Shown here one piece after another: positions 1,556-51,552 of a stretch of DNA of 64,000 nucleotides. Origin of the DNA: Caldovatus sediminis (lineage in GTDB: Bacteria; Pseudomonadota; Alphaproteobacteria; Acetobacterales; Acetobacteraceae); assembly GCF_014644455.1 (NCBI RefSeq), contig NZ_BMKS01000004.1, positions 62,001 through 126,000 of the forward strand, written 5' to 3'. The notes under the pieces were generated by a model. The model was not told the DNA's origin and made no database searches. It worked only from the letters and a program-made list of their open reading frames with translations. Position 1 is the stretch's first letter; each line of letters starts with the position of its first letter. A program made the translations under genes and the position numbers.

Positions 1556-2536
1556 ATGCACCCGCGCCGAACCTTGCTCCTCGCCGCTCCCGGGATCGCC
1601 GGGACCACGGTCGCCGCGCGCGCCCAGCCGGGCGGCGCCTATCCGGTGCGGCCGATCCGCATGGTCGTGCCCTTCGCGGCCGGCGGCGCCGCCGACCTCG
1701 TGGCCCGCGTGATCGCGCAAGGGATGAGCGAGACGCTGGGCCAGCCCGTCGTGGTCGAGAACCGCGGCGGATCGGGCGGGGTGATCGGGACCGAGGCGGT
1801 GCTCGCCGCGCCGGCCGACGGCTACACCATCGCCTTCCACTCCATGTCCTCGGCGGTGCTGAACGCCGGCCTGTACCGCAACCTCAGCTTCGACATCCGC
1901 CGCTCCTTCCTGCCGGTCTCGCTGGTCGGCACGGTGCCGAACATCGTCGTCGTCAACCCCCGCGTGCCGGCGCGGAACCTGGAGGAGTTCGTCGCGCTGC
2001 TGAAGCGCGAGCCGGGGCGCTACACCTACGCCTCGTCCGGCGCGGGGACGATCGTGCACCTCTCCGCGCACATGCTGGCGCAGATGGTGGGCGCCCAGGT
2101 GGTGCACGTGCCCTACCGCGGCTCCGGCCCGGCGATGAACGACCTGATCGCCGGCACGGTGGACTTCATGGTGGACACGCTGCCGACGGTGATCCCCTTC
2201 GTGCGCGACGGCAGGCTGCGCGCGCTCGCCGTCACCACGCGCGAGCGCAGCGCCGCGCTGCCGGAGGTGCCGACCGCGGCGGAGGCCGGGCTGCCCGGCT
2301 ACGAGACCTACAACTGGCACGCCGTCTTCGCCCCCGCGGGCGTGCCGGAGGGCGTGGTCCCGCGCCTCGAGCGCGCGGCGCGCGCGGCGGCGACCACCGG
2401 CGCCACGCATCGGCGCCTGGTCGAGGTCGGCGTGGACCCGCGCGGCAGCACGGCGGCGGAGCTGGAGGCGTTCTGGGACGAGCAGCTCCGCCTGTGGATC
2501 CCGATCGTGCGCTCCTCCGGCGCGACGGCGGATTGA
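1556..2536 (+). CDS. Tripartite tricarboxylate transporter substrate-binding protein (Bug family)
   Basis: Periplasmic binding protein of about 326 residues. It has a basic/hydrophobic signal peptide (MHPRRTLLL... ending near ARAQ) and the hallmark segment RMVVPFAAGGAAD, then GQPVVVENRGGSGG and YASSGAG. Bug proteins bind small carboxylates or aromatics and hand them to TctAB-type permeases or act as sensors. No permease is adjacent, a common situation for orphan Bug genes. GGAGG at 1545-1549 favours the ATG at 1556 over an ATG at 1550 or a TTG at 1529. It leads a plus-strand run with an HMG-CoA-lyase-like protein, a CoA-transferase and a dehydrogenase, suggesting that it imports their substrate (inference). 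Confidence 0.9.
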   Translation: MHPRRTLLLAAPGIAGTTVAARAQPGGAYPVRPIRMVVPFAAGGAADLVARVIAQGMSETLGQPVVVENRGGSGGVIGTEAVLAAPADGYTIAFHSMSSAVLNAGLYRNLSFDIRRSFLPVSLVGTVPNIVVVNPRVPARNLEEFVALLKREPGRYTYASSGAGTIVHLSAHMLAQMVGAQVVHVPYRGSGPAMNDLIAGTVDFMVDTLPTVIPFVRDGRLRALAVTTRERSAALPEVPTAAEAGLPGYETYNWHAVFAPAGVPEGVVPRLERAARAAATTGATHRRLVEVGVDPRGSTAAELEAFWDEQLRLWIPIVRSSGATAD

Positions 2537-2687
2537 GGGCTTCGGGACGGGGCCGCGACGGCCGGCCGCGGCGCGGGGGCGCGGGTCTGTCGCGATCGGC
2601 GGGGCGCGCTATGCTCGCCCCCGGCGCGCGCGCGGCCGGGGTCGGGGCGGCCGGGCCCCGGGGCGGCAGCAAGGAGAGGCAACAGCG

Positions 2688-3665
2688 ATGTCGGACCGTC
2701 CGAAGTTCGTCGAGTTCCGCGAGGAGGGCCCGCGCGAGGGCTTCCAGATCGAGAAGAAGGTCTATCCGCTCGCCGACCGCGTCGCGCTGGTCGAGGCGCT
2801 GGCCGAGACCGGGCTGAAGTACATCCAGGTCGCCTCCTTCGTCAGCCCGAAGCACGTGCCGCAGATGGCGGATTCGGAGCAGCTCTTCGCCGCGATCCGG
2901 CGCAGGCCCGGCGTGCACTACGCCGGGCTCTGGCTGAACGAGAAGGGCTTCGAGCGGGCGCGGCGGACGCCGAACGTGGACCTCTCGGCGAAGCTGTCGC
3001 TCTACGCCTCGGACGCCTTCGCGTGGAAGAACAACGGCTGCTCGGCCGAGGAGATGCGGGAACGGCAGCGCCGCTGGATGGACCTCTACGCCGAGGCCGG
3101 GCTGCCGATCGACAACGCCCTGGTGATGGCGGCCTTCGGCTGCAACTACGAGGGCGAGATCCCGCCGGCGCGGGTCGTGGAGCTGGCGCGCTGGACCGAC
3201 GCGCTGTGCCGCGAGTACGGGCAGAGGCTGCCGCGCTTCTTCCTCGCCGACACCATGGGCTGGGCCAATCCGGACTCCGTCCGCCGCCTGGTCGGCATGG
3301 TGCGCGAGGCGCTGCCCGAGGTGCGCATCGGGCTGCACCTGCACGACACGCGCGGCCTCGGCGCGGCCAACGTCCTCGCCGCGCTCGAGATGGGGGTGGA
3401 CCTGTTCGACAGCTCGGTCGCCGGCCTCGGCGGCTGCCCCTTCGCGAGCCACGGCGATGCCACCGCGGCCGGCAACATCTGCACCGAGGACATGGTCTTC
3501 CTCTGCCACGAGCTCGGCATCGAGACCGGGATAGACCTCGAGGCGCTGATCGAGTGCGGGCGCATGGCGGAGCGCATCATCGGCCGCAAGCTCTCGGGCC
3601 ACCTGATCCACAGCGGCTCGCTCGCGGCCTACCGCCGCGCGCGCCCGGCGAAGGCGGCGGAGTGA
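2688..3665 (+). CDS. Hydroxymethylglutaryl-CoA lyase family protein
   Basis: 325-residue TIM-barrel lyase of the HMGL-like family, which cleaves 3-hydroxy-3-methylglutaryl-CoA-type thioesters to acetyl-CoA plus a keto compound. Visible motifs are GPREGFQ near residues 14-20, SFVSPKHVPQMAD, ADTMGWANP, the metal-binding LHLHDTRG, and GLGGCPFA carrying the catalytic cysteine. Classical HMG-CoA lyases have Arg-Asp in the first motif. Here it is Arg16-Glu17, which suggests a subfamily with a different CoA ester. A Shine-Dalgarno AGGAGAGG precedes the ATG. The downstream CoA-transferase begins 6 bases after the stop, so the two are very probably co-translated and form an activate-then-cleave module. 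Confidence 0.88.
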   Translation: MSDRPKFVEFREEGPREGFQIEKKVYPLADRVALVEALAETGLKYIQVASFVSPKHVPQMADSEQLFAAIRRRPGVHYAGLWLNEKGFERARRTPNVDLSAKLSLYASDAFAWKNNGCSAEEMRERQRRWMDLYAEAGLPIDNALVMAAFGCNYEGEIPPARVVELARWTDALCREYGQRLPRFFLADTMGWANPDSVRRLVGMVREALPEVRIGLHLHDTRGLGAANVLAALEMGVDLFDSSVAGLGGCPFASHGDATAAGNICTEDMVFLCHELGIETGIDLEALIECGRMAERIIGRKLSGHLIHSGSLAAYRRARPAKAAE

Positions 3666-8267: not shown

Positions 8268-8813
8268 ATGACCGCCGCGACCGCCAGCCAGACGGCGGGG
8301 CCATACTGGCACCTGATCGACTTCCCCGAATGGGCCGACCTGCTGCGGGCCGACGGGCCGAACGCGGGCGTCACCGGCGGCGAGCGCATCGTGCTCACCG
8401 GCCGCGTCACGGACGGCCAGGGCGCGCCCGTCGCGGACGCCATGGTCGAGATCTGGCAGGCCGACCCCGAGGGCCGCTACGACGGCGCCTTCCACGGCTT
8501 CGGCCGCTGCGGCACCGATGCGGACGGCATGTTCCGCTTCGTCACCCTGAAGCCCGGCCCGGTGCCGGGCCGCGGCAACCAGACGCAGGCGCCGCACGTG
8601 GTGCTCTCGATCTTCGCGCGCGGGCTGCTGAAGCAGCTCGTCACGCGGCTCTACTTCGCCGGCGAGGCGCTGAACGAGAACGACCCGGTCCTGCAGGCGA
8701 TCGAGCCGGCGCGCCGCGGCACGCTGATCGCGCGCCGGACCGCGGCGCCCGGCGAATGGCGCCTCGACATCCGGCTGCAGGGCGAGGGCGAGACCGTCTT
8801 CCTCGACGTCTGA
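8268..8813 (+). CDS. pcaG: Protocatechuate 3,4-dioxygenase alpha subunit
   Basis: 181-residue structural partner of PcaH. It has the shared intradiol fold (ASQTAGPYW at the N-terminus, VTDGQGAPVADAMVEIWQADP) but lacks the paired Tyr/His iron ligands, as expected for the alpha chain. FARGLLKQLVTRLYF and the C-terminal GETVFLDV are family hallmarks. The ATG follows the pcaH stop by a single base, so the two are translationally coupled. It ends 7 bases before the convergent Rieske gene. Confidence 0.95.
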   Translation: MTAATASQTAGPYWHLIDFPEWADLLRADGPNAGVTGGERIVLTGRVTDGQGAPVADAMVEIWQADPEGRYDGAFHGFGRCGTDADGMFRFVTLKPGPVPGRGNQTQAPHVVLSIFARGLLKQLVTRLYFAGEALNENDPVLQAIEPARRGTLIARRTAAPGEWRLDIRLQGEGETVFLDV

Positions 8814-8820
8814 GGGCGCG

Positions 8821-9240
8821 CTACGCCTCCACCACCACGTAGTCGTCCTCGACCCGCACCGGGAAGGTCTCCACCACGTAGGGGCCTTCCCGGAGCGCCG
8901 CGCCGCGCTCGACCCGCGCCGGGAAGGCGCGGACGCGGGTGCGGTCCGGGTCGTGCCAGGACCTGCCGGTGCGGATGTCGAACTCCCACTGGTGCCAGGG
9001 GCAGCGCAGGATCTCGCCCTTGCGCCCGTAGCGGAACACGCCCGGCTCGTCGCTCTCGACCAGGCCGCAGAGCTTGCCCTCCGAGAGCCGCCCGCCCTGG
9101 TGCGGGCAGCGGTCGAGCAGGGCGAAGAACTCGCCGCCGAGGTTGAACACGACGATGCGCCGGCCCTGGCCGGCCTCCACCACCTTGCGCGCGCCGGGCG
9201 GGATCTCCGCCGCCGGCGCCACCACGTAGCGCGCCGCCAT
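8821..9240 (-). CDS. Rieske [2Fe-2S] ferredoxin-like protein
   Basis: 139-residue stand-alone Rieske protein. Cluster ligands are Cys45 and His47 (CPHQGG) and Cys80 and His83 (CPWHQWEF). The 32-residue gap between the boxes is longer than usual for a small ferredoxin. No oxygenase alpha-subunit domain is present. The ATG at 9240 overlaps the last base of the upstream amidohydrolase stop, so the genes are coupled. It is a likely electron carrier for an oxygenase. The partner is not adjacent, unless the carrier serves a protein encoded elsewhere. Confidence 0.88.
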   Translation of the reverse strand: MAARYVVAPAAEIPPGARKVVEAGQGRRIVVFNLGGEFFALLDRCPHQGGRLSEGKLCGLVESDEPGVFRYGRKGEILRCPWHQWEFDIRTGRSWHDPDRTRVRAFPARVERGAALREGPYVVETFPVRVEDDYVVVEA

Positions 9241-24687: not shown

Positions 24688-26145
24688 GTGATCGCCCTGC
24701 CGCCGCCGAAGCCCGAGGTCCTCGCCCGCCGCGAGGCGATCGTCGCCGCGCTGCGCGCGATCGTTCCCGGCGAGGGCGTCATCAGCGCCCCGGTCGAGCT
24801 CAAGCCCTACGAGACCGACGGCCTCACGGCCTACCGGCAGCCGCCGCTCGCGGTGGTGCTTCCCACCAGCACCGGACAGGTCGCCGCCGTGATGCGCTAC
24901 TGCCATGCGAACGGCATCCGCGTCGTGCCGCGCGGGGCCGGCACCTCGCTCTCCGGCGGCGCGCTGCCGCTCGCGGACGCGGTGGTGATCGGCCTGATGC
25001 GGATGAACCGCATCCTCGAGGTGGACTACGACAACCGCCTCGCCGTGGTGGAGGCGGGGGTGACCAACCTCGGCATCACCGCCGCGGTCGCGGAGCGGGG
25101 CTTCTTCTACGCCCCCGACCCGTCCTCGCAGCTCGCCTGCATGATCGGCGGCAACGTGATGATGAACTCGGGCGGCGCGCACTGCCTGAAGTACGGGGTG
25201 ACGGCGAACAACCTGCTCGGGGTGAAATTCGTCACCGTCGAGGGCGAGGTGGTGGAGATCGGCGGCCGCCACCTCGACGCCGCGGGCTACGACTGGCTCG
25301 GCCTGATCACCGGCAGCGAGGGCCAGCTCGGCATCGTCACCGAGGTCACGGTGCGCATCCTGCCCAGCCCGGAGGGGGCGCGGGCGATGCTCGCCGCCTT
25401 CCGCTCGATCGAGGTCGCCGGCGCCGCGGTCGCCGCCATCATCGGCAGCGGCATCATCCCGGTCGCGCTCGAGTTCATGGACCGCCCCTGCATCCACGCC
25501 TGCGAGGCCTTCGCCCACGCCGGCTACCCGCTGGACGCCGAGGCGATGCTGATCATCGAGGTCGAGGGCAGCGAGGCCGAGCAGGACATGCTGCTCGGCC
25601 GCATCCGGGCGATCTGCGGCCGCTTCGACCCGATCTCGCTGCGGGTCGCGCGGACCGCCGAGGAGAGCGCGGCGATCTGGAAGGGCCGCAAGGGCGCCTT
25701 CGGCGCGGTCGGCCGCATCTCGCCCGACTACCTCTGCATGGACGGCACCATCCCGACCTCCGAGCTGCCGCGCGTGCTCGGCCGCATCGGCGAGATGAGC
25801 CGCGCCTACGGCCTCCAGGTCGCCAACGTCTTCCACGCCGGCGACGGCAACCTGCACCCGCTGATCCTGTTCGACGCCAACGACCCCGAGAGCACGCGCA
25901 AGGCCGAGGCCTTCGGCGCGGACATCCTCAGGCTCTGCGTCGAGGTCGGCGGCTGCCTCACCGGCGAGCACGGCGTCGGCGTCGAGAAGCGCGACCTGAT
26001 GGGCGTGCAGTTCCTGCCGCACGAGCTCGCCCAGCAGCGGCGGATCAAGGGCGCCTTCGACCCGGACTGGCTGCTGAACCCCTCGAAGGTCTTCCCGCTG
26101 GAGGGCGAGGGCGCCGCGCCCGCGCCCGCCGCCCGCGCGGCATGA
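24688..26145 (+). CDS. glcD: Glycolate oxidase FAD subunit GlcD
   Basis: 485-residue FAD-linked oxidase of the vanillyl-alcohol-oxidase fold. The FAD-binding PCMH domain has VVPRGAGTSLSGGALPL and IGGNVMMNSGGAHCLKYG. The C-terminal half has FHAGDGNLHPLI and the signature GEHGVGVEK. It oxidises glycolate (or D-lactate) with GlcE and GlcF. The start is GTG at 24688, supported by GGAGG 9 bases upstream. The glcE start overlaps the stop (ATGA). Confidence 0.93.
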   Translation: MIALPPPKPEVLARREAIVAALRAIVPGEGVISAPVELKPYETDGLTAYRQPPLAVVLPTSTGQVAAVMRYCHANGIRVVPRGAGTSLSGGALPLADAVVIGLMRMNRILEVDYDNRLAVVEAGVTNLGITAAVAERGFFYAPDPSSQLACMIGGNVMMNSGGAHCLKYGVTANNLLGVKFVTVEGEVVEIGGRHLDAAGYDWLGLITGSEGQLGIVTEVTVRILPSPEGARAMLAAFRSIEVAGAAVAAIIGSGIIPVALEFMDRPCIHACEAFAHAGYPLDAEAMLIIEVEGSEAEQDMLLGRIRAICGRFDPISLRVARTAEESAAIWKGRKGAFGAVGRISPDYLCMDGTIPTSELPRVLGRIGEMSRAYGLQVANVFHAGDGNLHPLILFDANDPESTRKAEAFGADILRLCVEVGGCLTGEHGVGVEKRDLMGVQFLPHELAQQRRIKGAFDPDWLLNPSKVFPLEGEGAAPAPAARAA

Positions 26146-40836: not shown

Positions 40837-41949
40837 TCATCGCGCGGCCGGGCGCTGCGCGCGCGGCTCGGGCTCGCCCGACCAGCAGGCGTGGATCCAG
40901 GCGACGATCTCCGGCCACAGCCGCGCATGCGCGGCCGGGCCGACGAGGGGGCCGAGGTGCTGCAGGGCGGCGCCGCGCTCGGCCTCCTCGTGGCGCAGCA
41001 CGCGCCGCGGCAGCGCCGCCGGCAGGGCGGCGAGGCCGGCGAGGATGGACTCCGGCGGCACCACGCGCCCCGGCGGGTTGACGACGGCGAGCACCGGGCT
41101 GCGCAGCCGCTCCAGCCCGACGCGCCGGCCGCCGATCTCGAGCGTGCCCGCGGCGAGGCGGTCCTCGCGGTAGAGCCGCTCCACGACCTCCTCGAAGAGC
41201 CGGCCCGGCATCGCGAGCTCGTCCAGCAGCCAGCGCTCGACGCGGGCGCGGATGGCGAGGGCGAGCGGATCGGCGAGGCTTGCGCCGAGGTCGGCCCAGC
41301 GCTGGAGCACGAAGGTCTCCGGCGCCGCGGCGGTGGCGAGCTGGGCGACGAAGGCGCCGGGCACCGGGCTTCCGGCCAGGCGGCGCAGCCGGCGCGCATG
41401 CGGCGCGGCCGCGGCGGCGCGCGCGAGCGGCCCGCCCCGCTCCGGCCCGAAGGCGAGCGGCGCGTCCACCAGCACGAGGGCGCGCGCGCGCTCCGGCCGC
41501 AGCGCCGCGAGGATCGCGGCGAAGGTGCCGCCGAGCGAGTGCCCGACGAGCACGGCCGCGCCCTCGCCGGTCTCGCCGGCGATCGCGTCGAGCGCCGCGA
41601 GGGGCAGGCGCTCGGCGTAGTCCGCGAGGCCGAAGCGATCCTCCGCCGCGCCCGGGTCCAGCCATTCGAGCAGATAGACGCGCAGGCCGCCGCGCAGGCA
41701 GCGGCGCACGACGCTGACCGGGGGCAGGAGGTCCCAGAGGTAGGCGCGCTTGATCGGCGCCGGCAGGACCAGCAGCACCGGGCGCTTCGGGTCCCGTCCG
41801 GGGGGCTGGTAGGCCCGGAGCCGCGCTCCGGGCATCGCGGCGGCGACGCGCGAGGGCGTCTCGGCCGGGCCGAGCCCGATCGCGTCGAGGACGCGCCCGG
41901 CCCGGCGTCGGGCCTCGTCGAGCAGGGCGTAGGCGCTGGGCGCGGGCAT
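40837..41949 (-). CDS. Alpha/beta hydrolase related to PHA synthases, serine nucleophile
   Basis: 370-residue alpha/beta-hydrolase. The nucleophile elbow is GHSLGG (Ser138). The N-terminal RPVLLVLPAPIKRAYLWDLLP, LRVYLLEWLDPG and C-terminal LQHLGPLVGPAAHARLWPEI are laid out like class III polyhydroxyalkanoate synthases. These carry cysteine in the elbow, so this is more likely a hydrolase than a polymerase. No strong ribosome site is visible before the ATG at 41949. It may be the tail of the dehalogenase/TctAB block or independent. Confidence 0.78.
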   Translation of the reverse strand: MPAPSAYALLDEARRRAGRVLDAIGLGPAETPSRVAAAMPGARLRAYQPPGRDPKRPVLLVLPAPIKRAYLWDLLPPVSVVRRCLRGGLRVYLLEWLDPGAAEDRFGLADYAERLPLAALDAIAGETGEGAAVLVGHSLGGTFAAILAALRPERARALVLVDAPLAFGPERGGPLARAAAAAPHARRLRRLAGSPVPGAFVAQLATAAAPETFVLQRWADLGASLADPLALAIRARVERWLLDELAMPGRLFEEVVERLYREDRLAAGTLEIGGRRVGLERLRSPVLAVVNPPGRVVPPESILAGLAALPAALPRRVLRHEEAERGAALQHLGPLVGPAAHARLWPEIVAWIHACWSGEPEPRAQRPAAR

Positions 41950-42289
41950 CGGGCGTCGCCGGGATTCGAGGCGGCGCGGCCTGGGCGGCGGCGCCTTGCC
42001 GTGGGATAGCCCGCGGCGCAGGCCCTGGCGAATGGGGCTTGGCGCGCGGGCGGCCCCGGCATGGCGGCGCGCACGGCACGCCGCGATGACGCGGAGCCGA
42101 GCGGCGACGCGCACGCCGCGCCCCCTCTGTCCGGCGACGGCCTCGCGCGCGGGCGGCGAGCCGCGCCGAGGCCGAGCCGGGAACCACCCCTGCCGCCGCG
42201 GCGACGCCGAGGCCGCTCGTGCCGACGCCCGGCGCTCGGCCGCGCCTTCGTCCTGCGGAGGATCGGGCCGGCGCGCCGCGACCGCCGGG
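41950..42289. other. Intergenic region between MmgE/PrpD and alpha/beta hydrolase genes
   Basis: 340 bases, no supported gene on either strand. The size suggests that the hydrolase gene may have its own promoter. No hairpin or promoter hexamers stood out. Confidence 0.45.
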
Positions 42290-43705
42290 CTACCGCGCGG
42301 CCAGTGCCCGCGCCGTCTCGCGCACCGGCGCGCGGTCAATGGCGAGGATCGCCTGCCGGGCGCGCTCCGCCCGCGCCGCGTCGAACGCCATGCCGGCCGC
42401 GGCGAGGAACTTCGCCGAGGCGGCGGCCTCGTCCAGCGCCCGCTCGCCGGCGCCGCTGTTCACGCGCACATGCCGGCGCAGCCGCCGGCCGTCCGCAAGT
42501 TCGACCTCCACGCCGCCGGAGAAGTAGGCGGGGAAGGCCGTGTCGGGATCGGCCTCGCAGCGCGTGCGGGCGCAGAGGGCGAGGATGCGCGGGTCGCGCA
42601 GCGCCTCGGGCGCCAGCTCCTGCAGCCCGAAGCGTCCGCGCAGCAGGCAGGTGGCGATGACGAAGGGCGCGCTGAACTTCGCGGCGTAGTCGGTCCCGGG
42701 CCGCGCCTTCTCCGCCGCCGGCTCGGCGACGATCGGCAGGGTCGGGCCGGGGATCAGCACGCGGACGGCGGCGATCGCCGCCGGGTCCGGGATCTCGGCG
42801 TGCAGCGCGATGGCGGCGTCGGCGGCGCCGTGGACGAAGTGGCAGACCGGATAGGGCTTGATCGCGCTCTCCGCGAGCAGCCAGCGCGTGCCGAGGCCCT
42901 CGGTCAGCCGCGCCACCTCGGCCTCCCCGGCATGGGCCTGGAGGTGCGTCTCGAACAGGCCGAAGCGCCCCTCGTAGGGTCGCGCCGGGCCGACGAAGCC
43001 GTGCTGCGCGAGGCGGGCCGCGGTGATGCCGGCGACCGCGCCCCAGCCCGGGTGGAAGCGCTTGGTCCAGGCGCCGTCCTCGAGGAACACCTGCAGCCCG
43101 CCGGCGGTGGAGGAGACGATGCCCTGCGCCGCGGCGATCCGCTCCGCCGTCAGCCCGAGCAGCTTCCCCGCCACCACCGCGCTGCTGAAGTGCGAGACGA
43201 TGCCGGTCGCGTGGAAGCCCGCGTGGTGGAAGCCGCCCTTCGCCGCCGCCCCGATGCGGATCGCGACCTCCATGCCGGCGGCGTAGGCGACGAGCAGGTC
43301 GCGCCCGTGCGCGTCCAGTGCCTCGCCGAGCGAGAGCGCGCAGGGCAGGCAGGCCGCGGTGGCGTGCACGATGCTCGCGAGGTGCGTGTCGTCGAAGTCG
43401 AGGCCGTGGACGAGGATGCCGTTGGCGAGCGCGGCGTCGCGCACCGGCAGCCGCTCGGCGCGGCCGATCACGGTGCAGTCGCCGCCCTCCGTGCCGGCGA
43501 GGGCGACGAGGCCGGCCACCGCCCGCCCGGCGAAGGGATAGGCGTTGGCGGCAAGCCCGACGCCGAGCCCGTCGAGGATCTGGATGCGCGCCCGGGCGCG
43601 CACCGGCTCCGGGATCGCGTCGTAGTCGAGGCCGGCGGCGAACTCGGCGATGCGGCGCGCCGGCGCGGCCTCCGCCGCTCCCGTGCCCTGCGCGATGGCG
43701 TCCAT
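42290..43705 (-). CDS. MmgE/PrpD family protein
   Basis: 471-residue member of the 2-methylcitrate dehydratase/cis-aconitate decarboxylase family. Typical segments: LDGLGVGLAANAYPFAGRAV, ANGILVHGLDFDDTHL, GFHHAGFHATGIVSHFSSAVVAG, KRFHPGWGAVAGITAARLA and KPYPVCHFVHGAADAA. The family dehydrates or decarboxylates tricarboxylates or acts on smaller hydroxy acids. GGGAGGAA precedes the ATG. It is 22 bases downstream of an epimerase gene and in the same unit as a TctAB-type permease. Confidence 0.88.
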   Translation of the reverse strand: MDAIAQGTGAAEAAPARRIAEFAAGLDYDAIPEPVRARARIQILDGLGVGLAANAYPFAGRAVAGLVALAGTEGGDCTVIGRAERLPVRDAALANGILVHGLDFDDTHLASIVHATAACLPCALSLGEALDAHGRDLLVAYAAGMEVAIRIGAAAKGGFHHAGFHATGIVSHFSSAVVAGKLLGLTAERIAAAQGIVSSTAGGLQVFLEDGAWTKRFHPGWGAVAGITAARLAQHGFVGPARPYEGRFGLFETHLQAHAGEAEVARLTEGLGTRWLLAESAIKPYPVCHFVHGAADAAIALHAEIPDPAAIAAVRVLIPGPTLPIVAEPAAEKARPGTDYAAKFSAPFVIATCLLRGRFGLQELAPEALRDPRILALCARTRCEADPDTAFPAYFSGGVEVELADGRRLRRHVRVNSGAGERALDEAAASAKFLAAAGMAFDAARAERARQAILAIDRAPVRETARALAAR

Positions 43706-43727
43706 GCCCGTTCCTCCCGGCGCGCGG

Positions 43728-44720
43728 TCAGGCGCGCAGCGAATCCCGCCAGGCGACGTAGCGCCGGATGCCCTCCGCGAGCGGGACGCGCGGCACCCAG
43801 CCGATCTCCCGCTCCGCCCTGGCGCGGCTGAAGCCGAGATGCGTGCCGCCGGCGGAGCGGACGGCGCGGCTGTCCTCCCGGTACTCGGGCTCGAGATGCG
43901 TCGCGCCGCAGGCCTCGAGCACCAGCCGCGCCACCTCCGCGAGCGTGGTGTCCACCCCGGTCGCGAGGTTCATCACCTGGCCGTGCGAGGCGCTGGTCAT
44001 CGCGGCGAGGCAGCCCGCGGCGACGTCGGAGACGTGGATGTAGTCGTGCACCTCGCGCCCGTCGCCGGGGATGACCGGGCGCTCGCCGCGGCGGACGCGC
44101 TCGTAGGTCTCGGCGATGAAGTTGGCGTTCACCGCCCGCGCGTGCTGGCGCTCGCCGTAGACCGAGGCGAAGCGCAGCGCGTTGAACTCGACGCCGTACT
44201 TCTGCTCGTAGAGCCGGCCGAGCGCCTCGCCGAACAGCTTGCTCACGCCATAGACCGCGCTGACGGGGGAGAGGCCGGCGACGACGGTGCCGGCCTCCTC
44301 GGTCAGCGTCTCCGCCTCGGCGTTGCCGTAGGCGGCGACGGAGGAGGCGAAGACCACGCGCCGGACCCGCGCGATCCGCGCCGCCTCCAGCGTGTGCAGC
44401 AGGCCCATGGTGTTGACGGCGACGCCGAGCGGCGGGTTCTGCGCCATCGGCAGGGTCAGGAAGCCGGCGAGGGCGAAGATCCCGTCCGCGCCCTGCGCCG
44501 CGTCGATCGCCTCGTTCAGCCGCAGCAGGTCGCCGCGGATCAGCCGCGCGCGCGGCTCGTCGGCGAGGTGCGCGATCGTCTCCGGCGTGCCGAGCGAGAA
44601 GTTGTCGAGCAGCCGGACCTCGCGCGCGCCGGCGGCGAGCAGCGCGTCGGCGAGGTGCGAGCCGATCAGGCTCGCGCCTCCGGTGATCAGCCAGGTCGCG
44701 CCCTTCGCCTCGATCGGCAT
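43728..44720 (-). CDS. NAD-dependent epimerase/dehydratase (extended SDR)
   Basis: 330-residue extended short-chain dehydrogenase: TWLITGGASLIGSHLADALL for NAD binding, SSVAAYG and the catalytic Tyr/Lys pair YGVSK, then VYGERQHARAVNANF and IPGDGREVHDYIHVSDVA. The pattern is UDP-glucose-epimerase-like, but context is a transport/catabolic block with no sugar genes, so the substrate may be a non-nucleotide. GGAGG lies 5 bases before the ATG at 44720. Confidence 0.87.
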   Translation of the reverse strand: MPIEAKGATWLITGGASLIGSHLADALLAAGAREVRLLDNFSLGTPETIAHLADEPRARLIRGDLLRLNEAIDAAQGADGIFALAGFLTLPMAQNPPLGVAVNTMGLLHTLEAARIARVRRVVFASSVAAYGNAEAETLTEEAGTVVAGLSPVSAVYGVSKLFGEALGRLYEQKYGVEFNALRFASVYGERQHARAVNANFIAETYERVRRGERPVIPGDGREVHDYIHVSDVAAGCLAAMTSASHGQVMNLATGVDTTLAEVARLVLEACGATHLEPEYREDSRAVRSAGGTHLGFSRARAEREIGWVPRVPLAEGIRRYVAWRDSLRA

Positions 44721-44837
44721 GCGATCCTCCGTGCTGCCTCTGGCGCCGCGTCCTGCGGGCGGCCGGGACCCTACCGGGCGCGGGCGCCAGGCGCAACGCG
44801 GCGGCGGGTGCCGGGTGACGGCGGGCGCGCGCCGCCT

Positions 44838-46808
44838 TCAGCGCAGCGGCCAGGGAAGGTCGTACAGCTCCTGCAACAGGCCGCCGGGGAAGATCAGGCT
44901 CAGCGCATGCGCGAGCAGCAGGATGGAGCCCGCCGCGGCGGCGGTCAGCACCGCCGTCTGCAGCCAGCCGCAGCGCGCGACGACGCGCAGGAAGCCGAGG
45001 AAGAAGGCGACCAGCGCGAGGAAGAAGCCGATCAGGGCGACTAGGCCGACGAAGCCGATGATCCAGAGCAGGAAGGGCCATGGCCCCCAGTCCCGCGCCT
45101 CCGCCTCGGAGTCGAAATTCGCCGTTCCCGCCGCCACCGGCCCGCGGAGCTGGGCGACGAGCACCGCCAGCGTGGCCAACGCGCCCACCGCCGCGACGCC
45201 GACCGGCATGATGAGGGCCAGGTAGGAGACGGCGAGACCCTGCTGCAGCGTGACGCCGAACAGGGCGAGGACGAACAGTGAGAACAGGATCTGCGGCCAG
45301 AGGCGGCGGGCGCGGGCCGTCTCCGCCTCGCCCTCCGTGTTGACGCCGCCGCCGCCGGGCCGGCGGCGGAAGCCGGCCCATACGGAGAGGAGCGTGACCG
45401 CCAGGATGACGAGGACGAGCGGCCGCGTCAGGAACGACCAGCCGTAGAACTGCACCGCCTGGTACAGGTAGCGCTCGGCCAGCAGAGCGAGCACGAAGCC
45501 GATCAGGAAGGCGGGACGCGACCAGCCGAACCGCCGGAGGAAGATGCCGATCAGGCCGATGGCCAGCAGGGCGAGGAGGTCGTTGAGGCTCCGCGTCGCC
45601 TGGAAGGCGGCGAAGAAGATCACCATGATCATGAACGGCGCCACGAGCGCGTAGCGGATCGCGGTGAGGCGCGCGATGCCGGGCGCGAGCGCGATGCAGA
45701 GCCCGGTGCCGACGACGTTCGCGAGCGCGAGCGACCAGATGACCGTATAGGTCACGCCGAGGTCGCGCTCCGCCATGGAAGGGCCCGGCTGCAGCCCGAG
45801 CAGCATCATGCCGGCCAGGAAGATCGCCATGGCGCCGGAGCCCGGGATGCCGAAGAGCAGCGTGGGCAGCAGCGCGCCGCCCTCCTTCGCGTTGTTCGCC
45901 GATTCGGGCGCGATGACGCCGCGGATGTCGCCCTTGCCGAAGCGCGCGTTGTCCCTGGTCGTCTGGACGACATGCCCGTACGCGATCCAGTCCACCACGC
46001 TGCCGCCGAGCCCGGGGATCGCGCCGACGATCGCGCCTAGCCCCGCGCAGCGCAGCGCGAGCCACTTGTTCCGCCAGGTGTCGGCCACCCCCTGCAGCCA
46101 GCCGCGGCCGAGCGCCGCCTGCCGCGCGATCGACGATCCGCCGCGCAGCAGGTCCAGGATCTCCGGCAGGGCGAAGATGCCGAGCGCGACGATGACGAGC
46201 GGCAGGCCGTCCATCAGGTAGAGCGAGCCGAAATCCATTCGGTACTCGGCCGTGGCCGGCGCCGAGCCGATCATGCCGAAGGCGAGGCCGAGGCACGCCG
46301 CGGCGATCCCCTTGGCGAGGTTGGCGCCGGAGAGGATGCCGACCATCGAGAGGCCGAACACGGTCAGCATGAACAGCTCGGCCGAGCCGAAGGCGAGGAT
46401 CAGCGGCCGGGCGATCAGCACGAAGCCGGTGAGCACCGCAGCGCCGAACAGCCCGCCGATGAGCGAGGCGAAGAAGGCGGCCGAGAGCGCGCGCGCCGCC
46501 TCGCCCTGCTTGGCGAGCGGGAAGCCGTCGAGGATCGTGGCCTGGGACGCGGACGAGCCCGGGATGCCCATCAGCACCGAGGTGAAGGTGTCCGAGGTGG
46601 GGATGATCGCGACCAGCCCGATCAGCATGGCCAGCGCCGATGTCTGGTCCATGCCGTAGATGAAGGGCAGCAGCAGCGACAGCCCGGCGATGCCGCCGAG
46701 TCCCGGCAGCACGCCGATCAGGAGCCCGAGGGCCACGCCGATGAGGAGGAAGGCGAAATGCCCCGGCGTCAGCAGGCTCAGGAGGGCGTCGAGAAGGGGG
46801 GCGATCAT
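44838..46808 (-). CDS. Tripartite tricarboxylate transporter permease, TctA-TctB fusion
   Basis: 656-residue membrane protein. Residues 1 to about 490 are TctA (LPGLGGIAGLSLLLPFIY, TSVLMGIPGSSASQATILDG, GAIVGAIPGLGGSVVDW, LLPTLLFGIPGSGAMAIFLAG). The last ~140 residues hold about four extra hydrophobic segments separated from TctA by a hydrophilic linker with GGGGVNTEGEAETARARR. That is the size and topology of TctB. Normal TctA has about 500 residues, so this appears to be a natural fusion. No separate TctB gene is nearby. The start is ATG at 46808 with a weak ribosome site. Confidence 0.88.
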   Translation of the reverse strand: MIAPLLDALLSLLTPGHFAFLLIGVALGLLIGVLPGLGGIAGLSLLLPFIYGMDQTSALAMLIGLVAIIPTSDTFTSVLMGIPGSSASQATILDGFPLAKQGEAARALSAAFFASLIGGLFGAAVLTGFVLIARPLILAFGSAELFMLTVFGLSMVGILSGANLAKGIAAACLGLAFGMIGSAPATAEYRMDFGSLYLMDGLPLVIVALGIFALPEILDLLRGGSSIARQAALGRGWLQGVADTWRNKWLALRCAGLGAIVGAIPGLGGSVVDWIAYGHVVQTTRDNARFGKGDIRGVIAPESANNAKEGGALLPTLLFGIPGSGAMAIFLAGMMLLGLQPGPSMAERDLGVTYTVIWSLALANVVGTGLCIALAPGIARLTAIRYALVAPFMIMVIFFAAFQATRSLNDLLALLAIGLIGIFLRRFGWSRPAFLIGFVLALLAERYLYQAVQFYGWSFLTRPLVLVILAVTLLSVWAGFRRRPGGGGVNTEGEAETARARRLWPQILFSLFVLALFGVTLQQGLAVSYLALIMPVGVAAVGALATLAVLVAQLRGPVAAGTANFDSEAEARDWGPWPFLLWIIGFVGLVALIGFFLALVAFFLGFLRVVARCGWLQTAVLTAAAAGSILLLAHALSLIFPGGLLQELYDLPWPLR

Positions 46809-47364
46809 GCCGCGGCGGGCCTTCGGAGCGGGGCGACGGAGGGCGCGCGGAGCAGCGGCGCCGGACGGACTTTCGCCGCGTCGCGCCAGGCGCCGGAAGG
46901 CCGATGCCTGCCGGACACGGTCGGTCGCGTCTCGTCCACGGTTCCGTCCTCCCGGCGGGAGAGCCCGCGCATCCGCCGGCGGCGCGGCACGCCAAGCCTG
47001 GGCTGCGGTTGCCGGTTCCCGTCGTCCGCCCCGATTCGGCCGCTCCCCGCCGGAGCGGCTTGCCGGGCGCACGTGCCTTGGTCAAGGGCGGTCTTTCGCG
47101 TGCCGCGCAGGGCCCCGTTCCGGTCCGGATCGCGCCGGCCTGCGGTTGGTCCGGACGGCGGGTGGAAGCGGCGCGGGCGGGAGGCGTCCCGGAGCGGATC
47201 GTGGACCGCCGGAAACGGCCGGGAGCGCGGATCCGCTCGACAGGCAGCGCGCGGGGCCGTCGCCGCGCGCGGCCGACGGGGCGGCGGCGGGCCGAGCGGA
47301 GCCGAGGATCGGGCCGCGCCACGAGGCGCGCCGCGCCGACAGCGCCGGCGCGGCGCGTGCGCGC
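46809..47364. other. Intergenic region between Bug gene and TctA-TctB gene
   Basis: 556 bases. Open frames on both strands are Arg/Ala/Pro-rich with no domain. The distance suggests that the permease has its own promoter or a long leader. I found no convincing hairpin, hexamer pair or RNA motif. Confidence 0.5.
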
Positions 47365-48480
47365 TCACAGGCGATGGTTGAAGCGGCGCAGGAGCCAGTC
47401 GCGCACCCAGCCGCGGGTCTCGTCGCTCATGGTCGTGGCCGCGGCGTAGGCGCGGTCGCAGGCCTCGCCGGTCACCTCGTTGTACTCGCCGATCACCGAG
47501 ACCCGCTTTTCCAGGTACTCGGGGTCGGAGAGCGTCCGGGCGAAGGCGCCGCGGTAGGCGTCGAGGATCGCGGCCGGCGTCTCCTTCGGCAGCACGACGA
47601 ACTTCTGCGCCGCGAAGCCGGCGACGAACAGGGTCCGCCAGGCCTCCCAGGCCGGACCGGAGGGCGGGGCGCCGAGCGCGGCGGTGGCGAACTCGGCGAA
47701 GTGCGGCAGGTCCGGGAAGTTCGGATCGCGCACCAGCTCGCCCTGCGCGTTCAGCGCGCCCCAGGACCACAGCGGAACGGCCTTGCCCTCGCGCACCAGC
47801 GGCATGACCTGGGCGTTGAAGGCGGAGGTGGTCTGGTAGTCGACCGGCGTCTCGCCGCGCTCGAAGGCCAGCCGGCCGGCCCCGCGCCCCTGCATGCCGA
47901 AGACGATCTGCACGTCGAGGCCCAGGATCTCGAAGGCCAGCGCGGGGACGATGTCGAGCGAGGTCGGCCCCTGGCTGCCGTACTTCAGCCCCTGCGCCGC
48001 CTTGAACTTCGCGAAGTCGGCCACGCCGCGCACGCCGAGCTCCGGCCGCACGTAGAAGACGCCGCCGGTCGGGCCCGCCAGCACCGGCGCCCAGGCCTTG
48101 TAGTCGTAGCGCACGCGCGGATCGCCGAGCAGGTAGGGGAACTGGATCGAGCCGGTGGTGCCGAGGATCATCAGCCCGTCCGGCCGCGCCCGGGCGGCGA
48201 ACTGGTTGGTGCCGTTGATGCCGCCGCCGCCGGTGATGTTGCGGACGACGACGGTCGGCTGGCCGGGCAGGTGCCTGCTCAGGAAGGGCTGGTGGAAGCG
48301 CGCCCAGGTGTCCGACCCGCCGCCGACGGCGAGCGGGATGATGAACTCGATGGTCTTCCCGGCGAAGTCCTGCGCCTGCGCGGCGCGGCCCGGCAGCGCG
48401 CCCGCGGCGGCAAGCCCGGCGGCACCCAGCCGCAACAGGTCGCGGCGGCCAGGCCGCCCCAGGGACAGGATGGTGGTCAT
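47365..48480 (-). CDS. Tripartite tricarboxylate transporter substrate-binding protein (Bug family)
   Basis: 371-residue Bug protein, longer than usual (320-335). Signal peptide with twin-Arg-like start (GRPGRRDLLRLGAAGLAAAG... to about AQAQ). Then TIEFIIPLAVGGGSDTWAR, VVVRNITGGGGINGTNQF and LKYGSQGPTSLDIV. It lies 79 bases downstream of the dehalogenase-like gene and upstream of the TctA-TctB gene, so it probably supplies that permease. Confidence 0.88.
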   Translation of the reverse strand: MTTILSLGRPGRRDLLRLGAAGLAAAGALPGRAAQAQDFAGKTIEFIIPLAVGGGSDTWARFHQPFLSRHLPGQPTVVVRNITGGGGINGTNQFAARARPDGLMILGTTGSIQFPYLLGDPRVRYDYKAWAPVLAGPTGGVFYVRPELGVRGVADFAKFKAAQGLKYGSQGPTSLDIVPALAFEILGLDVQIVFGMQGRGAGRLAFERGETPVDYQTTSAFNAQVMPLVREGKAVPLWSWGALNAQGELVRDPNFPDLPHFAEFATAALGAPPSGPAWEAWRTLFVAGFAAQKFVVLPKETPAAILDAYRGAFARTLSDPEYLEKRVSVIGEYNEVTGEACDRAYAAATTMSDETRGWVRDWLLRRFNHRL

Positions 48481-48559
48481 GAGCGCTTCTCCCGCTTGTC
48501 GGTGTCTCTGCCGTGGCGCCGGCCCGGGCCGCTCCGCTCCGGCCGATCCGCCGGCCACA

Positions 48560-49453
48560 TTAACGGCCGGCCGGCGCCGCGCCAAAGAACCCGAGGAACC
48601 GGGCGAGCGTCTCCTCGGGTGCGTGCTCGGGCACGTAGTGGCCGCAGTCGAGCGGCCCGCCCGTGACGTCCTCGGCGTAGTCGCGCCAGACGGCGAGAAC
48701 GTCGCCATAGACCCGCCCCGTGTGGCTCTCGGCGCCCCACAGGACCAGGGTCGGGCAGGCGACGCGGCGGCCCCAGTCCGCCTCGTCCATCGCCCGGTCG
48801 AGCGTCGCCGCGGCGCGGTAGTCGGCGCAGGAGGCGCGGATGGTCTTGGGGGTGAAGCAGCGCACGTACTCGGCGAAGGCTTCCGGCGCGAAGATCGAGA
48901 TGCCCACGCCGGGCCGGCCGATCTTGCGCTCCATGAACCAGTCGGGCGGCACCGACTCCATCATCCGCTCCGGCAGGTCGTTGCCCTGGGGCATGAACAG
49001 CCAGTGCCAGGAGCCGAGCGCCCACTCCGCGGAGGCGTTCCGCCAGATGTGCCGGTTCGGCAGGATGTCGAGCAGGGCGAGCCGCTCCACCCGCTCCGGA
49101 TGGTCGAGCGCCATGCGGTGCGCGGTGCGCGCGCCGCGGTCGTGGCCCGCGACCATGAACCGCTCGTGGCCGAGGGCGCGCATCACCTCCACCTGGTCCT
49201 GGGCCATGGCGCGGAAGGTGTAGTTCGCCGTGTCCCTGGGATCGGGGCCGACGCTGTCGCCGTAGCCGCGCAGGTCGGCCGCGACGACGTGGAAGCGCTC
49301 CGCGAGCCGCCCGGCGATGCGATGCCAGGCGACGTGGGTCTGCGGATTGCCGTGCAGCAGCAGGAGCGGCGGCCCGTTGCCGCCGTGGCGCAGATGGATG
49401 CGCGCGGCGCCGCCGGCGGTCGCGATCTCCGTTCGCTCGAAGCCCTCGAACAT
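48560..49453 (-). CDS. Fluoroacetate dehalogenase-like alpha/beta hydrolase
   Basis: 297-residue alpha/beta-hydrolase. The residue set known from the Rhodopseudomonas fluoroacetate dehalogenase is present: nucleophile Asp105 with Arg106 and Arg109 in GHDRGART (D110/R111/R114 there), the acid Asp129 in LLDILP, the halide site His150-Trp151 in SWHWLFM (H155/W156) and Tyr212 in CADYRA (Y219), and the base His272 (GHYVPEH; H280). These enzymes hydrolyse the C-F bond of fluoroacetate to glycolate. Some homologues with this set work on chloro- or bromoacetate. GGAGG precedes the ATG. Divergent from a Bug gene. Glycolate would feed GlcDEF (24.7-30.0 kb). Confidence 0.88.
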   Translation of the reverse strand: MFEGFERTEIATAGGAARIHLRHGGNGPPLLLLHGNPQTHVAWHRIAGRLAERFHVVAADLRGYGDSVGPDPRDTANYTFRAMAQDQVEVMRALGHERFMVAGHDRGARTAHRMALDHPERVERLALLDILPNRHIWRNASAEWALGSWHWLFMPQGNDLPERMMESVPPDWFMERKIGRPGVGISIFAPEAFAEYVRCFTPKTIRASCADYRAAATLDRAMDEADWGRRVACPTLVLWGAESHTGRVYGDVLAVWRDYAEDVTGGPLDCGHYVPEHAPEETLARFLGFFGAAPAGR

Positions 49454-49747
49454 CGTCCGTTCCCTCCGCCGCGCCCGGCATTCCCGGCCCCGAGGCGGCG
49501 CGTGCTCCTCAGGCTCGGCCGCCGGCGCCTTCGCGTCCCGGCCCGGGAAGCCTAGCACCGCCCGTGGCCGGCGGCGCGGCCGCGGACGCGCCGGGCGAGG
49601 CGGGGAGGGACGTCGCGGGACGCACCGCCTCGGTGGGGGGAGGCCGTGCGCCGCGCCCGCCCGCCTGCCCCGTCGAGGGTGGCGGGATCCGGCCCTCGCC
49701 GGTAGTCTCTCGCGAAGAACGGACTTCACCTGGGAGGGGATCGTCCC

Positions 49748-50743
49748 ATGCTCGGACGTCGTGCTTTCTCGCTCGCTGCCGCCCTGGCGCCGCTCGCCGC
49801 GAGCGGGCTCGCCGCGCCGCGCCCCGCCGGCGCCCAGGCGGCGGCCTGGCCGAGCCGGCCGCTCCGCATGGTGATCCCCTGGCCGCCGGGGCAGGCGACG
49901 GACCTGATCGGGCGGGTCGTCGCGCAGTTCCTGACGAACGCCCTCGGCCAGACCGTGGTGCCGGAGAACCGGCCCGGCGCCGGCGGGCAGATCGGCACGG
50001 ACGCGGTGGCAAAGGCGGCGCCGGATGGGCACACCCTGCTCGCCGCCTCGATCGGGCCGATCACCTTCCAGCCGCTGGTGCAGCGCACGCCCTACAACGT
50101 CGAGCGCGACTTCGCCCCGGTCGCGAGCTTCGGCGCGGCGCCCTACATGCTGCTGGTGCGCCCGAGCTTCCCGGCGACGGATGCGCGGTCCTTCGTGGCG
50201 CATGTGAAGGCCAACCCGGGCAAGTACAGCTACGCCTCCTCCGGCATCGGCGGGGCGCAGCACATGGTGACCGCGCTGTTCAACGCCCGGGCGGGTCTCG
50301 ATGCGCTGCACGTGCCGTTCCAGGGCAGCGGCCCGGCGATGGCCGCCTTCCTTGGCGGGCAGGTGGACTACGCGATCGAGACCCCGGCCGGCGCCGGCGC
50401 GCTGGTGCGCCAGGGGCAGCTGCGCCCGCTCGGCCAGACCCTCGGGCGTCCGAGCGCGCTGCTGCCCGGCATTCCGCCGCTCGCCGAGGCGGCCGACCTG
50501 CCCGGCTACGACATCGGCGGCTGGAACGGGCTGATGGTGCCCGCGGGCACGCCGCAGCCGATCATCGACCGCCTGCTCGCCGAGGTGGAAAAGGGCCTCG
50601 CGACGCCGGAGGTGACGGAGCGCTTCGCCGCCATCGGCTTCGAGGTGTCACCGCGCGGTCCGGACGGCTTCCGGGCCATGCTGCGCGAGCTTCGGGAGAC
50701 GTTCGGCCCGCTGATCCGCCAGCTCGGCATCCGCGCCGAGTGA
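49748..50743 (+). CDS. Tripartite tricarboxylate transporter substrate-binding protein (Bug family)
   Basis: 331-residue Bug protein with signal peptide (MLGRRAFSLAAALAPLAAS... to about AGAQ) and signatures RMVIPWPPGQATDLIGR, VPENRPGAGGQIGTDAV, YSYASSGIGGAQHM and LHVPFQGSGPAMA. GGGAGGGG precedes the ATG at 49748. Divergent from the dehalogenase-like gene and 50 bases before the sirtuin gene. Confidence 0.9.
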   Translation: MLGRRAFSLAAALAPLAASGLAAPRPAGAQAAAWPSRPLRMVIPWPPGQATDLIGRVVAQFLTNALGQTVVPENRPGAGGQIGTDAVAKAAPDGHTLLAASIGPITFQPLVQRTPYNVERDFAPVASFGAAPYMLLVRPSFPATDARSFVAHVKANPGKYSYASSGIGGAQHMVTALFNARAGLDALHVPFQGSGPAMAAFLGGQVDYAIETPAGAGALVRQGQLRPLGQTLGRPSALLPGIPPLAEAADLPGYDIGGWNGLMVPAGTPQPIIDRLLAEVEKGLATPEVTERFAAIGFEVSPRGPDGFRAMLRELRETFGPLIRQLGIRAE

Positions 50744-50793
50744 GGCGCCGCGGCCTGCCGCCCCCGACGATGGAGGAGGAGGAAGGGCGCGTG

Positions 50794-51552
50794 ATGCCCA
50801 CCGCCGACCCGGGGATCGCCGCACTGCGCGAGATGATCGCCGCCGCGCGCCGCGCCGTGGTGTTCACCGGCGCCGGCATCAGCACGGAGTCCGGCATCCC
50901 CGACTTCCGCAGCCCGACCGGCATCTGGACGCAGATGCGGCCGATCTACTTCCAGGAGTTCGTCGGTTCGCCGGAGATGCGGCGCGAGGCCTGGCGCCGG
51001 AAATTCGCCTCCGACCCGGTGCTGCGCGCCGCCCGGCCGAACCGCGGCCACCGCGCCGTGGCGCGGCTGGTGAGCATGGGCAAGGCGAGCGCCGTCATCA
51101 CCCAGAACATAGACGGGCTGCACCAGGCCTCCGGCGTGCCGGCGGACAAGGTGATCGAGCTGCACGGCAACTCCACCTACGCGCACTGCCTGGAGTGCGG
51201 CGAGCGGTACGAACTCGACGCGCTGCGCGAGGCCTTCGAGCGCGACGGCGACGTGCCGGACTGCGGGGCCTGCGGCGGGCTCGTGAAGACGGCGACCGTC
51301 AGCTTCGGGCAGGCGATGCCGGAGGCGGCGATGATCCGGGCGGAGGCCGAGACGCGGGCCTGCGACCTGTTCCTCGTGCTGGGCTCCTCGCTGGTCGTCT
51401 ATCCGGCGGCGGGCTTTCCGGAGATGGCCAAGCGGAACGGCGCGCGGCTGGTGATCGTGAACAACGAGGAGACGCCGCTCGACGACATCGCCGACCTCGT
51501 GATCCACCGCGGGATCGGCGAGGTCATGGGCACCGTCGTCGGCAACAACTGA
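50794..51552 (+). CDS. NAD-dependent protein deacylase (Sir2 family)
   Basis: 252-residue sirtuin. NAD pocket GAGISTESGIPDFRSPTGIW (residues 26-45), TQNIDGLHQ, and catalytic His124 in ELHGN. Zinc ligands Cys132/Cys135 and Cys157/Cys160. The Tyr/Arg pair typical of the desuccinylase class is not evident, which favours a deacetylase. AGGAAGG precedes the ATG at 50794; the GTG at 50791 and ATG at 50770 are alternatives. Probably co-transcribed with the Bug gene. Confidence 0.92.
   Translation: MPTADPGIAALREMIAAARRAVVFTGAGISTESGIPDFRSPTGIWTQMRPIYFQEFVGSPEMRREAWRRKFASDPVLRAARPNRGHRAVARLVSMGKASAVITQNIDGLHQASGVPADKVIELHGNSTYAHCLECGERYELDALREAFERDGDVPDCGACGGLVKTATVSFGQAMPEAAMIRAEAETRACDLFLVLGSSLVVYPAAGFPEMAKRNGARLVIVNNEETPLDDIADLVIHRGIGEVMGTVVGNN

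Follow-up and report, generated by a model that had tools for sequence, protein, structure and literature searches.

A fluoroacetate-dehalogenase-family hydrolase of an uncharacterised subfamily adjoins tripartite tricarboxylate transporter genes in Caldovatus sediminis

The 64,000-nucleotide stretch of Caldovatus sediminis DNA considered here (the window; G000:C4:62001-126000 of a 4.797 Mb genome in 43 contigs) carries an alpha/beta hydrolase gene of the fluoroacetate dehalogenase family next to genes for a tripartite tricarboxylate transporter. The order on the minus strand is hydrolase, BugA, fused TctA-TctB permease (TctAB), epimerase and MmgE/PrpD protein, with gaps, taken from the coordinates, of 79 bp (hydrolase-BugA), 556 bp (BugA-TctAB), 117 bp (TctAB-epimerase) and 22 bp (epimerase-PrpD). 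An earlier note on this DNA had read these genes, with a second binding-protein gene, as one haloacid uptake and degradation cassette. The features of the locus are:

48560-49453, minus strand: fluoroacetate-dehalogenase-family alpha/beta hydrolase of the HGNP subfamily, 297 amino acids, with D105, R106/R109, D129, H150/W151/Y212 and H272, and with N36, R180 and P181
47365-48480, minus strand: BugA, a divergent TctC-type periplasmic binding protein (P0002), barely over its cut-off (27.3 bits against 27)
46809-47364, minus strand: gap of 556 bp separating BugA from TctAB; the two congeners have about 80-90 bp here, measured from match ends
44838-46808, minus strand: fused TctA-TctB permease, 656 amino acids, of a type that differs from that of both congeners (TctA, 399 bits against a cut-off of 28.9)
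43728-44720, minus strand: NAD-dependent epimerase/dehydratase family protein, family match confirmed
42290-43705, minus strand: MmgE/PrpD superfamily protein, family match confirmed
49748-50743, plus strand: BugB, an ordinary TctC/Bug protein (P0006), divergent from the hydrolase (188.2 bits, E = 2.7e-55, cut-off 27)
40837-41949: polyhydroxyalkanoate (PHA)-synthase-like alpha/beta hydrolase, under every family cut-off (114 bits to class III PhaC, cut-off 365)
50776-51552: Sir2 protein, downstream of BugB, as is a tRNA-Val gene

Family searches matched all the neighbours that the earlier note had named (two Bug proteins, a TctA permease, an epimerase and an MmgE/PrpD protein), with BugA barely over its cut-off and the TctB part weak: the C-terminal part of the permease gave a full-length match to TctB at 13.6 bits against a cut-off of 29.1 (E = 0.078). 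The locus holds both the TctA and the TctC/Bug (P0006, P0002) components of a tripartite tricarboxylate transporter. Among named relatives, Caldovatus aquaticus is the nearest; its hydrolase is 90% identical, and it has a 93% identical BugB at the matching place. Across the whole genome of the window's species, binding proteins far outnumber permeases, with 101 TctC/Bug matches (100 over cut-off) and 8 TctA matches. The window's single BugB gene, by itself, proves little.

The resemblance of the hydrolase to fluoroacetate dehalogenases is not due to chance, given a best PDB match at E = 2.6e-94. Its closest solved relative is 3qyj, the Nostoc protein Alr0039/NOS0089, at 53.7% identity over the aligned segment; the corresponding values are 47.1% for 9c9f, 45.5% for RPA1163 (3r3u) and 44.7% for DAR3835 (8sdc). 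The 9c9f structure is one that we take to be DeHa4, deposited in the PDB as a fluoroacetate dehalogenase. NOS0089 and DAR3835 are reported to defluorinate fluoroacetate and difluoroacetate (PMC11022551). By alignment, all eight active-site residues listed in the earlier note fall at fluoroacetate dehalogenase positions. Asp105, Arg106, Arg109, Asp129, His150 and Trp151 occur in 110 of 110 rows of an alignment made up of the window's protein, four references and 105 locus sequences (some contigs being counted twice), and Tyr212 and His272 in all 109 rows that reach those positions. The nucleophilic Asp, two carboxylate Arg, acid Asp, base His and His-Trp-Tyr halide pocket of fluoroacetate dehalogenases are thus all present. 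The lid tryptophan (Trp185 of RPA1163) is replaced by Pro181; this residue is not a defining one, and 9c9f also lacks it. The hydrolase passed no cut-off among NCBIfam models. Haloalkane dehalogenase was rejected as an identity, with a best score of 60.8 bits against a curated NCBIfam cut-off of 241; the HGNP motif alone is held in common. HGNP is a haloalkane dehalogenase motif, the Asn of which binds halide.

Comparison with the characterised enzymes, proposed in the earlier note as a check, bore out the catalytic and halide residues but placed the hydrolase outside the references' groups, with different pocket residues at positions 36, 148, 154, 180 and 181. In a midpoint-rooted tree of 98 non-identical rows, picked by likeness to the window's protein, the hydrolase falls in an 82-row clade (support 100/99) that includes none of the four characterised references, which entered as aligned segments, not full-length proteins, and have long branches; some of the sampled loci are short contigs from metagenome bins and may be misnamed. 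At position 36, Asn fills 81 of 81 clade rows, and the 16 rows outside have Tyr (11), Phe (2), Asn (2) or His (1). Position 180 is Lys in 79 and Arg in 3 of the 82. Ser, Gly or Ala fills position 148 throughout the clade (82/82), with Tyr in 12/16 outside, and position 154 is Met or Asn in 82/82 inside and Leu in 16/16 outside. At the Trp185 position (residue 181 in the window's protein), Trp occurs in 0/82 rows inside the clade and 9/16 outside; in RPA1163 this residue is reported to lie in the substrate pocket and to be restrained upon binding (PMC11465415). On this tree, the hydrolase belongs to a distinct subfamily, so far uncharacterised, within the fluoroacetate dehalogenase family. The residues of the clade suggest that the pocket has opened up and gained a base, which would fit a larger, perhaps dicarboxylic, substrate. 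Because the lid Trp is lost and Lys/Arg180 is gained, the substrate would be larger than haloacetate and would probably carry a second carboxylate.

The pocket bears on the function that the earlier note had favoured, a cassette for uptake and degradation of haloacetates such as fluoroacetate, with glycolate going to GlcDEF. Retention of all fluoroacetate dehalogenase catalytic and halide residues speaks for such a function, as does the reported action of NOS0089 on fluoroacetate (PMC11022551). Two relatives have neighbours in keeping with it: malate synthase G lies directly upstream of the hydrolase at L067 (hydrolase 1981-2856), and at L107 (hydrolase 2238-3110) a convergent type II HAD-family haloacid dehalogenase gene (143 bits, cut-off 125.4) ends about 10 bp away. 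The genome also carries two adjacent CrcB fluoride-exporter genes (G000:C4:51319-52081), but this pair lies about 10 kb before the window and about 58 kb from the hydrolase, and there were no CrcB matches in the window or at 96 hydrolase loci. Neither the window nor 7 additional stretches yielded a fluoride riboswitch, and the stretch with the CrcB pair gave none at the Rfam threshold. The fluoroacetate cluster of Caballeronia sp. S22 is described as having a thioesterase, an aconitate methyltransferase and CrcB (PMC11812338); neither a fluoroacetyl-CoA thioesterase nor an aconitate methyltransferase was seen among the neighbouring genes here, although no dedicated search was made for these two. 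The glycolate route found no support: GlcDEF is 20 kb off, outside the flanks read. Its GlcD-like gene (G000:C4:86853-88088, window 24852-26087, plus strand) reaches 480 bits where the glcD cut-off is 567.9, and GlcE and GlcF were assigned from translations by eye only. Fluoroacetate as the substrate is weakened by the changed pocket and by the lack of CrcB or riboswitch nearby, and it is not the likeliest one; we think the haloacetate cassette unlikely.

Gene order in close relatives argues that the hydrolase belongs with the transporter. Seven genomes with a hydrolase at least 74% identical were found, the window's included, and in six of them it is followed by BugA and then fused TctAB: the window, C. 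aquaticus (L104/L063), the metagenome-assembled genome HOG26 (L103/L064), Roseomonas RH59 (L105), Roseomonas AR75 (L119) and G152 (L065). At least two genera and two permease types are represented, and the first match 3' of the hydrolase begins 66-234 bp on. In the seventh genome, Humitalea rosea (L106), a 4-oxalomesaconate-tautomerase-type isomerase gene directly follows the hydrolase instead. This type of isomerase also lies 3' of TctAB in L105, L119 and L065, and the L119 protein scores 462.4, over the 4-oxalomesaconate tautomerase cut-off of 440. The isomerase again directly follows the hydrolase in two outgroup loci (L111 and L112, hydrolase 67% identical), with reading frames overlapping by 4 bases in L112; both have a divergent dehydrogenase gene of the isopropylmalate/tartrate type, and L111 also has TctAB-BugA on the opposite strand. 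A GntR-type regulator gene ends 20-40 bp 5' of the hydrolase in L119 and L065. We rejected a relocated copy of the operon isomerase in the window's genome, as the best candidate (C2:523143, 478 bits) is only 54-55% identical and unlinked.

The conserved order covers hydrolase-BugA-TctAB and stops short of the epimerase/PrpD part that the earlier note had included. HOG26 has a 95% identical epimerase at the matching place and no PrpD match in the remaining 1.3 kb of its contig. In C. aquaticus, PrpD residues 309-470 only are present, split over two frames (L063, about 8664-9148), and the stretch read gave no epimerase match. With the tail not conserved in these congeners, inclusion of the epimerase and PrpD in the block is not supported. 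The nearest solved structures to the MmgE/PrpD protein are IDS-epimerase, Bacillus IRG1 and cis-aconitate decarboxylase. An assignment as 2-methylcitrate dehydratase was rejected on curated cut-offs (47.4 against 950, 29.8 against 575 and 28.8 against 458 bits), and scores this low (29.8 bits against 575) also leave the fluorocitrate-type chemistry suggested for PrpD without support.

The permease has a history of its own. In trees, the window's BugA groups with the two congeners (100/99), and its TctAB with other genera (98/98); the TctAB of the congeners is another type (100/100), 57-58% identical. At the DNA level, the window and the congeners are 87-89% identical across the hydrolase and BugA, a value that falls to 74% across the alignable part of TctAB. 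The 556-bp gap, so much longer than the roughly 80-90 bp of the congeners, marks the 5' side of the divergent permease; it gave no significant match to a remnant of the congeners' permease. No second fused TctAB was found in the genome, whose remaining TctA matches do not exceed 34% identity. It looks as if a distantly related type replaced the permease in situ in the window's species, BugA and the hydrolase being retained. Deep paralogy plus losses would be an alternative.

Beyond the closest relatives, 108 of 200 genomes of the family have a hydrolase relative (E <= 1e-40) and 15 have BugA (E <= 1e-60), with the two adjacent in 4. Homologues scattered without the transporter, the outcome named in the earlier note as damaging to its proposal, were thus partly what emerged, most relatives lying away from this Bug-TctAB. 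We scanned 84 clade loci, likewise picked by likeness to the window's protein, for neighbours, expressed as genes per 100 flank-bins of 2.5 kb at 0-2.5, 2.5-5, 5-7.5 and 7.5-10 kb from the hydrolase. Bug density was 22.9, 7.9, 12.2 and 2.2, and at 24 of the 84 loci a Bug gene lies no more than 2.5 kb away. In the same order, the densities were 4.6, 2.4, 1.9 and 1.1 for TctA; 4.6, 4.7, 2.8 and 0 for PrpD; 3.3, 2.4, 0 and 0 for PrpF-type; 5.2, 1.6, 1.9 and 0 for tartrate-dehydrogenase-type; 4.6, 1.6, 0 and 0 for GntR; 3.9, 0, 0 and 0 for AbrB; and 0, 1.6, 0.9 and 2.2 for Ldh2 genes. Control families gave 3.9, 2.4, 3.8 and 5.5 (SDR); 7.2, 1.6, 1.9 and 4.4 (CaiB); 1.3, 7.1, 5.6 and 3.3 (ABC); 4.6, 3.1, 0 and 1.1 (ECH); and 2.0, 0.8, 1.9 and 1.1 (AMP ligase). 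Mere background was rejected as the source of the Bug neighbours: about 5 per 100 bins would be expected from 101 TctC genes in 4.797 Mb, against 22.9 near and 2.2 far. Adjacency in six of the seven closest genomes and this enrichment beside the wider clade uphold the pairing of dehalogenase and Bug-TctAB as a unit.

A second layout recurs at L082, L100, L167, L176, L195 and L196, with varying mixes of AbrB-type membrane protein, MmgE/PrpD, GntR/FCD regulator, TctA and tartrate-dehydrogenase-type genes. L107 has two ABC-type permease genes upstream, judged by eye. Six plasmid stretches, one of them unannotated, were also read. On Phyllobacterium and Neorhizobium plasmids, clade members (signature checked) lie among genes annotated as tartrate dehydrogenase, isopropylmalate-dehydrogenase-type, PdxA and MmgE/PrpD, with an annotated TctA nearby on the Neorhizobium plasmid. 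In Jannaschia, a fluoroacetate dehalogenase relative outside the clade stands directly 5' of a tartrate dehydrogenase gene. No comparable neighbours were found in the stretches from an archaeon and a Sphingomonas plasmid, where both enzymes fall outside the clade.

Could the hydrolase stand beside a transporter operon by chance? TctC-type genes are so common in this genome (101 in 4.8 Mb) that a Bug neighbour by itself carries little weight, and adjacency to this BugA in only 4 of 200 family genomes is what coincidence might produce. An identical order in six of the seven closest genomes, across at least two genera and with permease types 57% alike, is harder to explain in this way, as is the presence of the isomerase gene immediately 3' of the hydrolase in the seventh genome and two outgroups. 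We consider coincidence very unlikely.

We instead predict, in a judgement evenly balanced, that the hydrolase is the first gene of an uptake-plus-hydrolysis unit with BugA-TctAB, acting on some substituted organic acid. BugA would bind a carboxylate in the periplasm, and TctAB would import it, the direction and specificity of transport being presumed. In the cytoplasm, Asp105 would attack the alpha-carbon of a substrate held by Arg106/Arg109, and the leaving group would enter the His150-Trp151-Tyr212 pocket. His272 and Asp129 would then drive hydrolysis of the ester, yielding a 2-hydroxy acid for central metabolism. The three genes may well be co-transcribed. The evidence supports the view that the earlier note had recognised a real unit, one with firmer backing than a single window could give, with its border drawn too wide and its substrate too narrow.

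Several observations weigh against this prediction. At ten BugA-TctAB loci from other Acetobacteraceae (L083, L085-L093), the stretch read contains no hydrolase gene; the transporter is therefore not dependent on the hydrolase. At least six of these ten have the isomerase 3' of TctAB, a lower bound because open-reading-frame picking missed some genes (e.g. the L065 isomerase, found later); the transporter-isomerase core is hence wider, with the hydrolase joining it in one lineage. Many clade members have none of the neighbours scanned for, and of the five control families, two (CaiB, ECH) likewise show a higher density close to the hydrolase. The neighbourhood queries were drawn from the same loci, which are related to one another, and the gradient is inflated; we therefore give a gradient, not a p-value. 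As for the pocket, 9c9f, which lies outside the clade and is deposited as a fluoroacetate dehalogenase, carries Arg at the Trp185 position; an enzyme that has lost this Trp could thus still act on fluoroacetate.

A larger 2-halo or epoxy di/tricarboxylate is suggested as the substrate because tartrate dehydrogenases and isomerases adjoin relatives. We tentatively extend this to the HGNP clade, as a possibility of low probability: it may represent an enzyme in its own right, built on the fluoroacetate dehalogenase scaffold and hydrolysing 2-halo or 2,3-epoxy di/tricarboxylates. Lys/Arg180 would hold the second carboxylate and Asn36 would be an extra halide/oxyanion ligand. Tripartite tricarboxylate transporters would feed it, and tartrate-/malate-like products would pass to neighbouring dehydrogenases and isomerases. 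Alternatively, the hydrolase may be no dehalogenase at all, and use its Asp nucleophile on an epoxy- or ester-type di/tricarboxylate, e.g. as an epoxysuccinate hydrolase making tartrate. Tartrate-dehydrogenase-type genes adjoin clade members L111, L112, L167 and L176 and, by annotation, those on two rhizobial plasmids, and the one at L167 scores above the tartrate dehydrogenase cut-off (497.8 against 470.4), though the name of that model, TIGR02089, is a family label and not a tested function. There is precedent in the cis-epoxysuccinate hydrolases CESH[L], described as related to L-2-haloacid dehalogenases (PMC10869282). However, no tartrate dehydrogenase gene adjoins the window's hydrolase, and the His-Trp-Tyr halide pocket, a feature with no obvious use in an epoxide hydrolase, is invariant. 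We find this alternative doubtful.

Enzymes that cleave carbon-halogen bonds are wanted for clean-up of per- and polyfluoroalkyl substances (PFAS) and pesticides, and the natural substrates of most fluoroacetate dehalogenase relatives are not known. A coherent clade that retains the catalytic residues but has an altered pocket, together with a known class of carboxylate importer, yields a testable shortlist: 2-halosuccinates, epoxysuccinates, 2-halopropionates and haloacetates. If the HGNP clade is a separate enzyme, it would be an alpha/beta-fold counterpart of the step from HAD haloacid dehalogenase to epoxysuccinate hydrolase, and would explain why fluoroacetate dehalogenase relatives occur in 108 of 200 genomes of the Acetobacteraceae family despite the rarity of fluoroacetate. 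If the importer takes halo acids, it would be of a transporter type that our limited literature search did not find described for them; the same search found no paper joining a hydrolytic dehalogenase to a tripartite tricarboxylate transporter.

Burkholderia MBA4 reportedly pairs a HAD-type dehalogenase with an MFS permease. Its haloacid operon resembles the window in placing a dehalogenase gene beside an importer gene (PMC3931356, PMC3552994), and Dehp2 is called MFS (PMC6371555); the window differs in having a fluoroacetate-dehalogenase-family enzyme and a tripartite tricarboxylate transporter. The Caballeronia sp. S22 cluster, as described, likewise sets a fluoroacetate dehalogenase homologue within a catabolic cluster, with resistance genes where the window has a carboxylate importer (PMC11812338). 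The BugA-TctAB-isomerase operons of other Acetobacteraceae (L083, L085-L093) share BugA and fused TctAB and lack the hydrolase in the stretch read. NOS0089, RPA1163, DAR3835 and 9c9f share with the hydrolase the fold, the catalytic Asp-His-Asp, both carboxylate arginines and the His-Trp-Tyr halide pocket; at 44.7-53.7% identity they fall outside its clade, with HG[YFH]P, Leu154 and mostly Trp185 against HGNP and Met154. CESH[L], likened here by description and not by sequence, is reported to combine a haloacid-dehalogenase-related scaffold and a two-step ester mechanism near tartrate metabolism, on a HAD fold where the window's enzyme is an alpha/beta hydrolase (PMC10869282).

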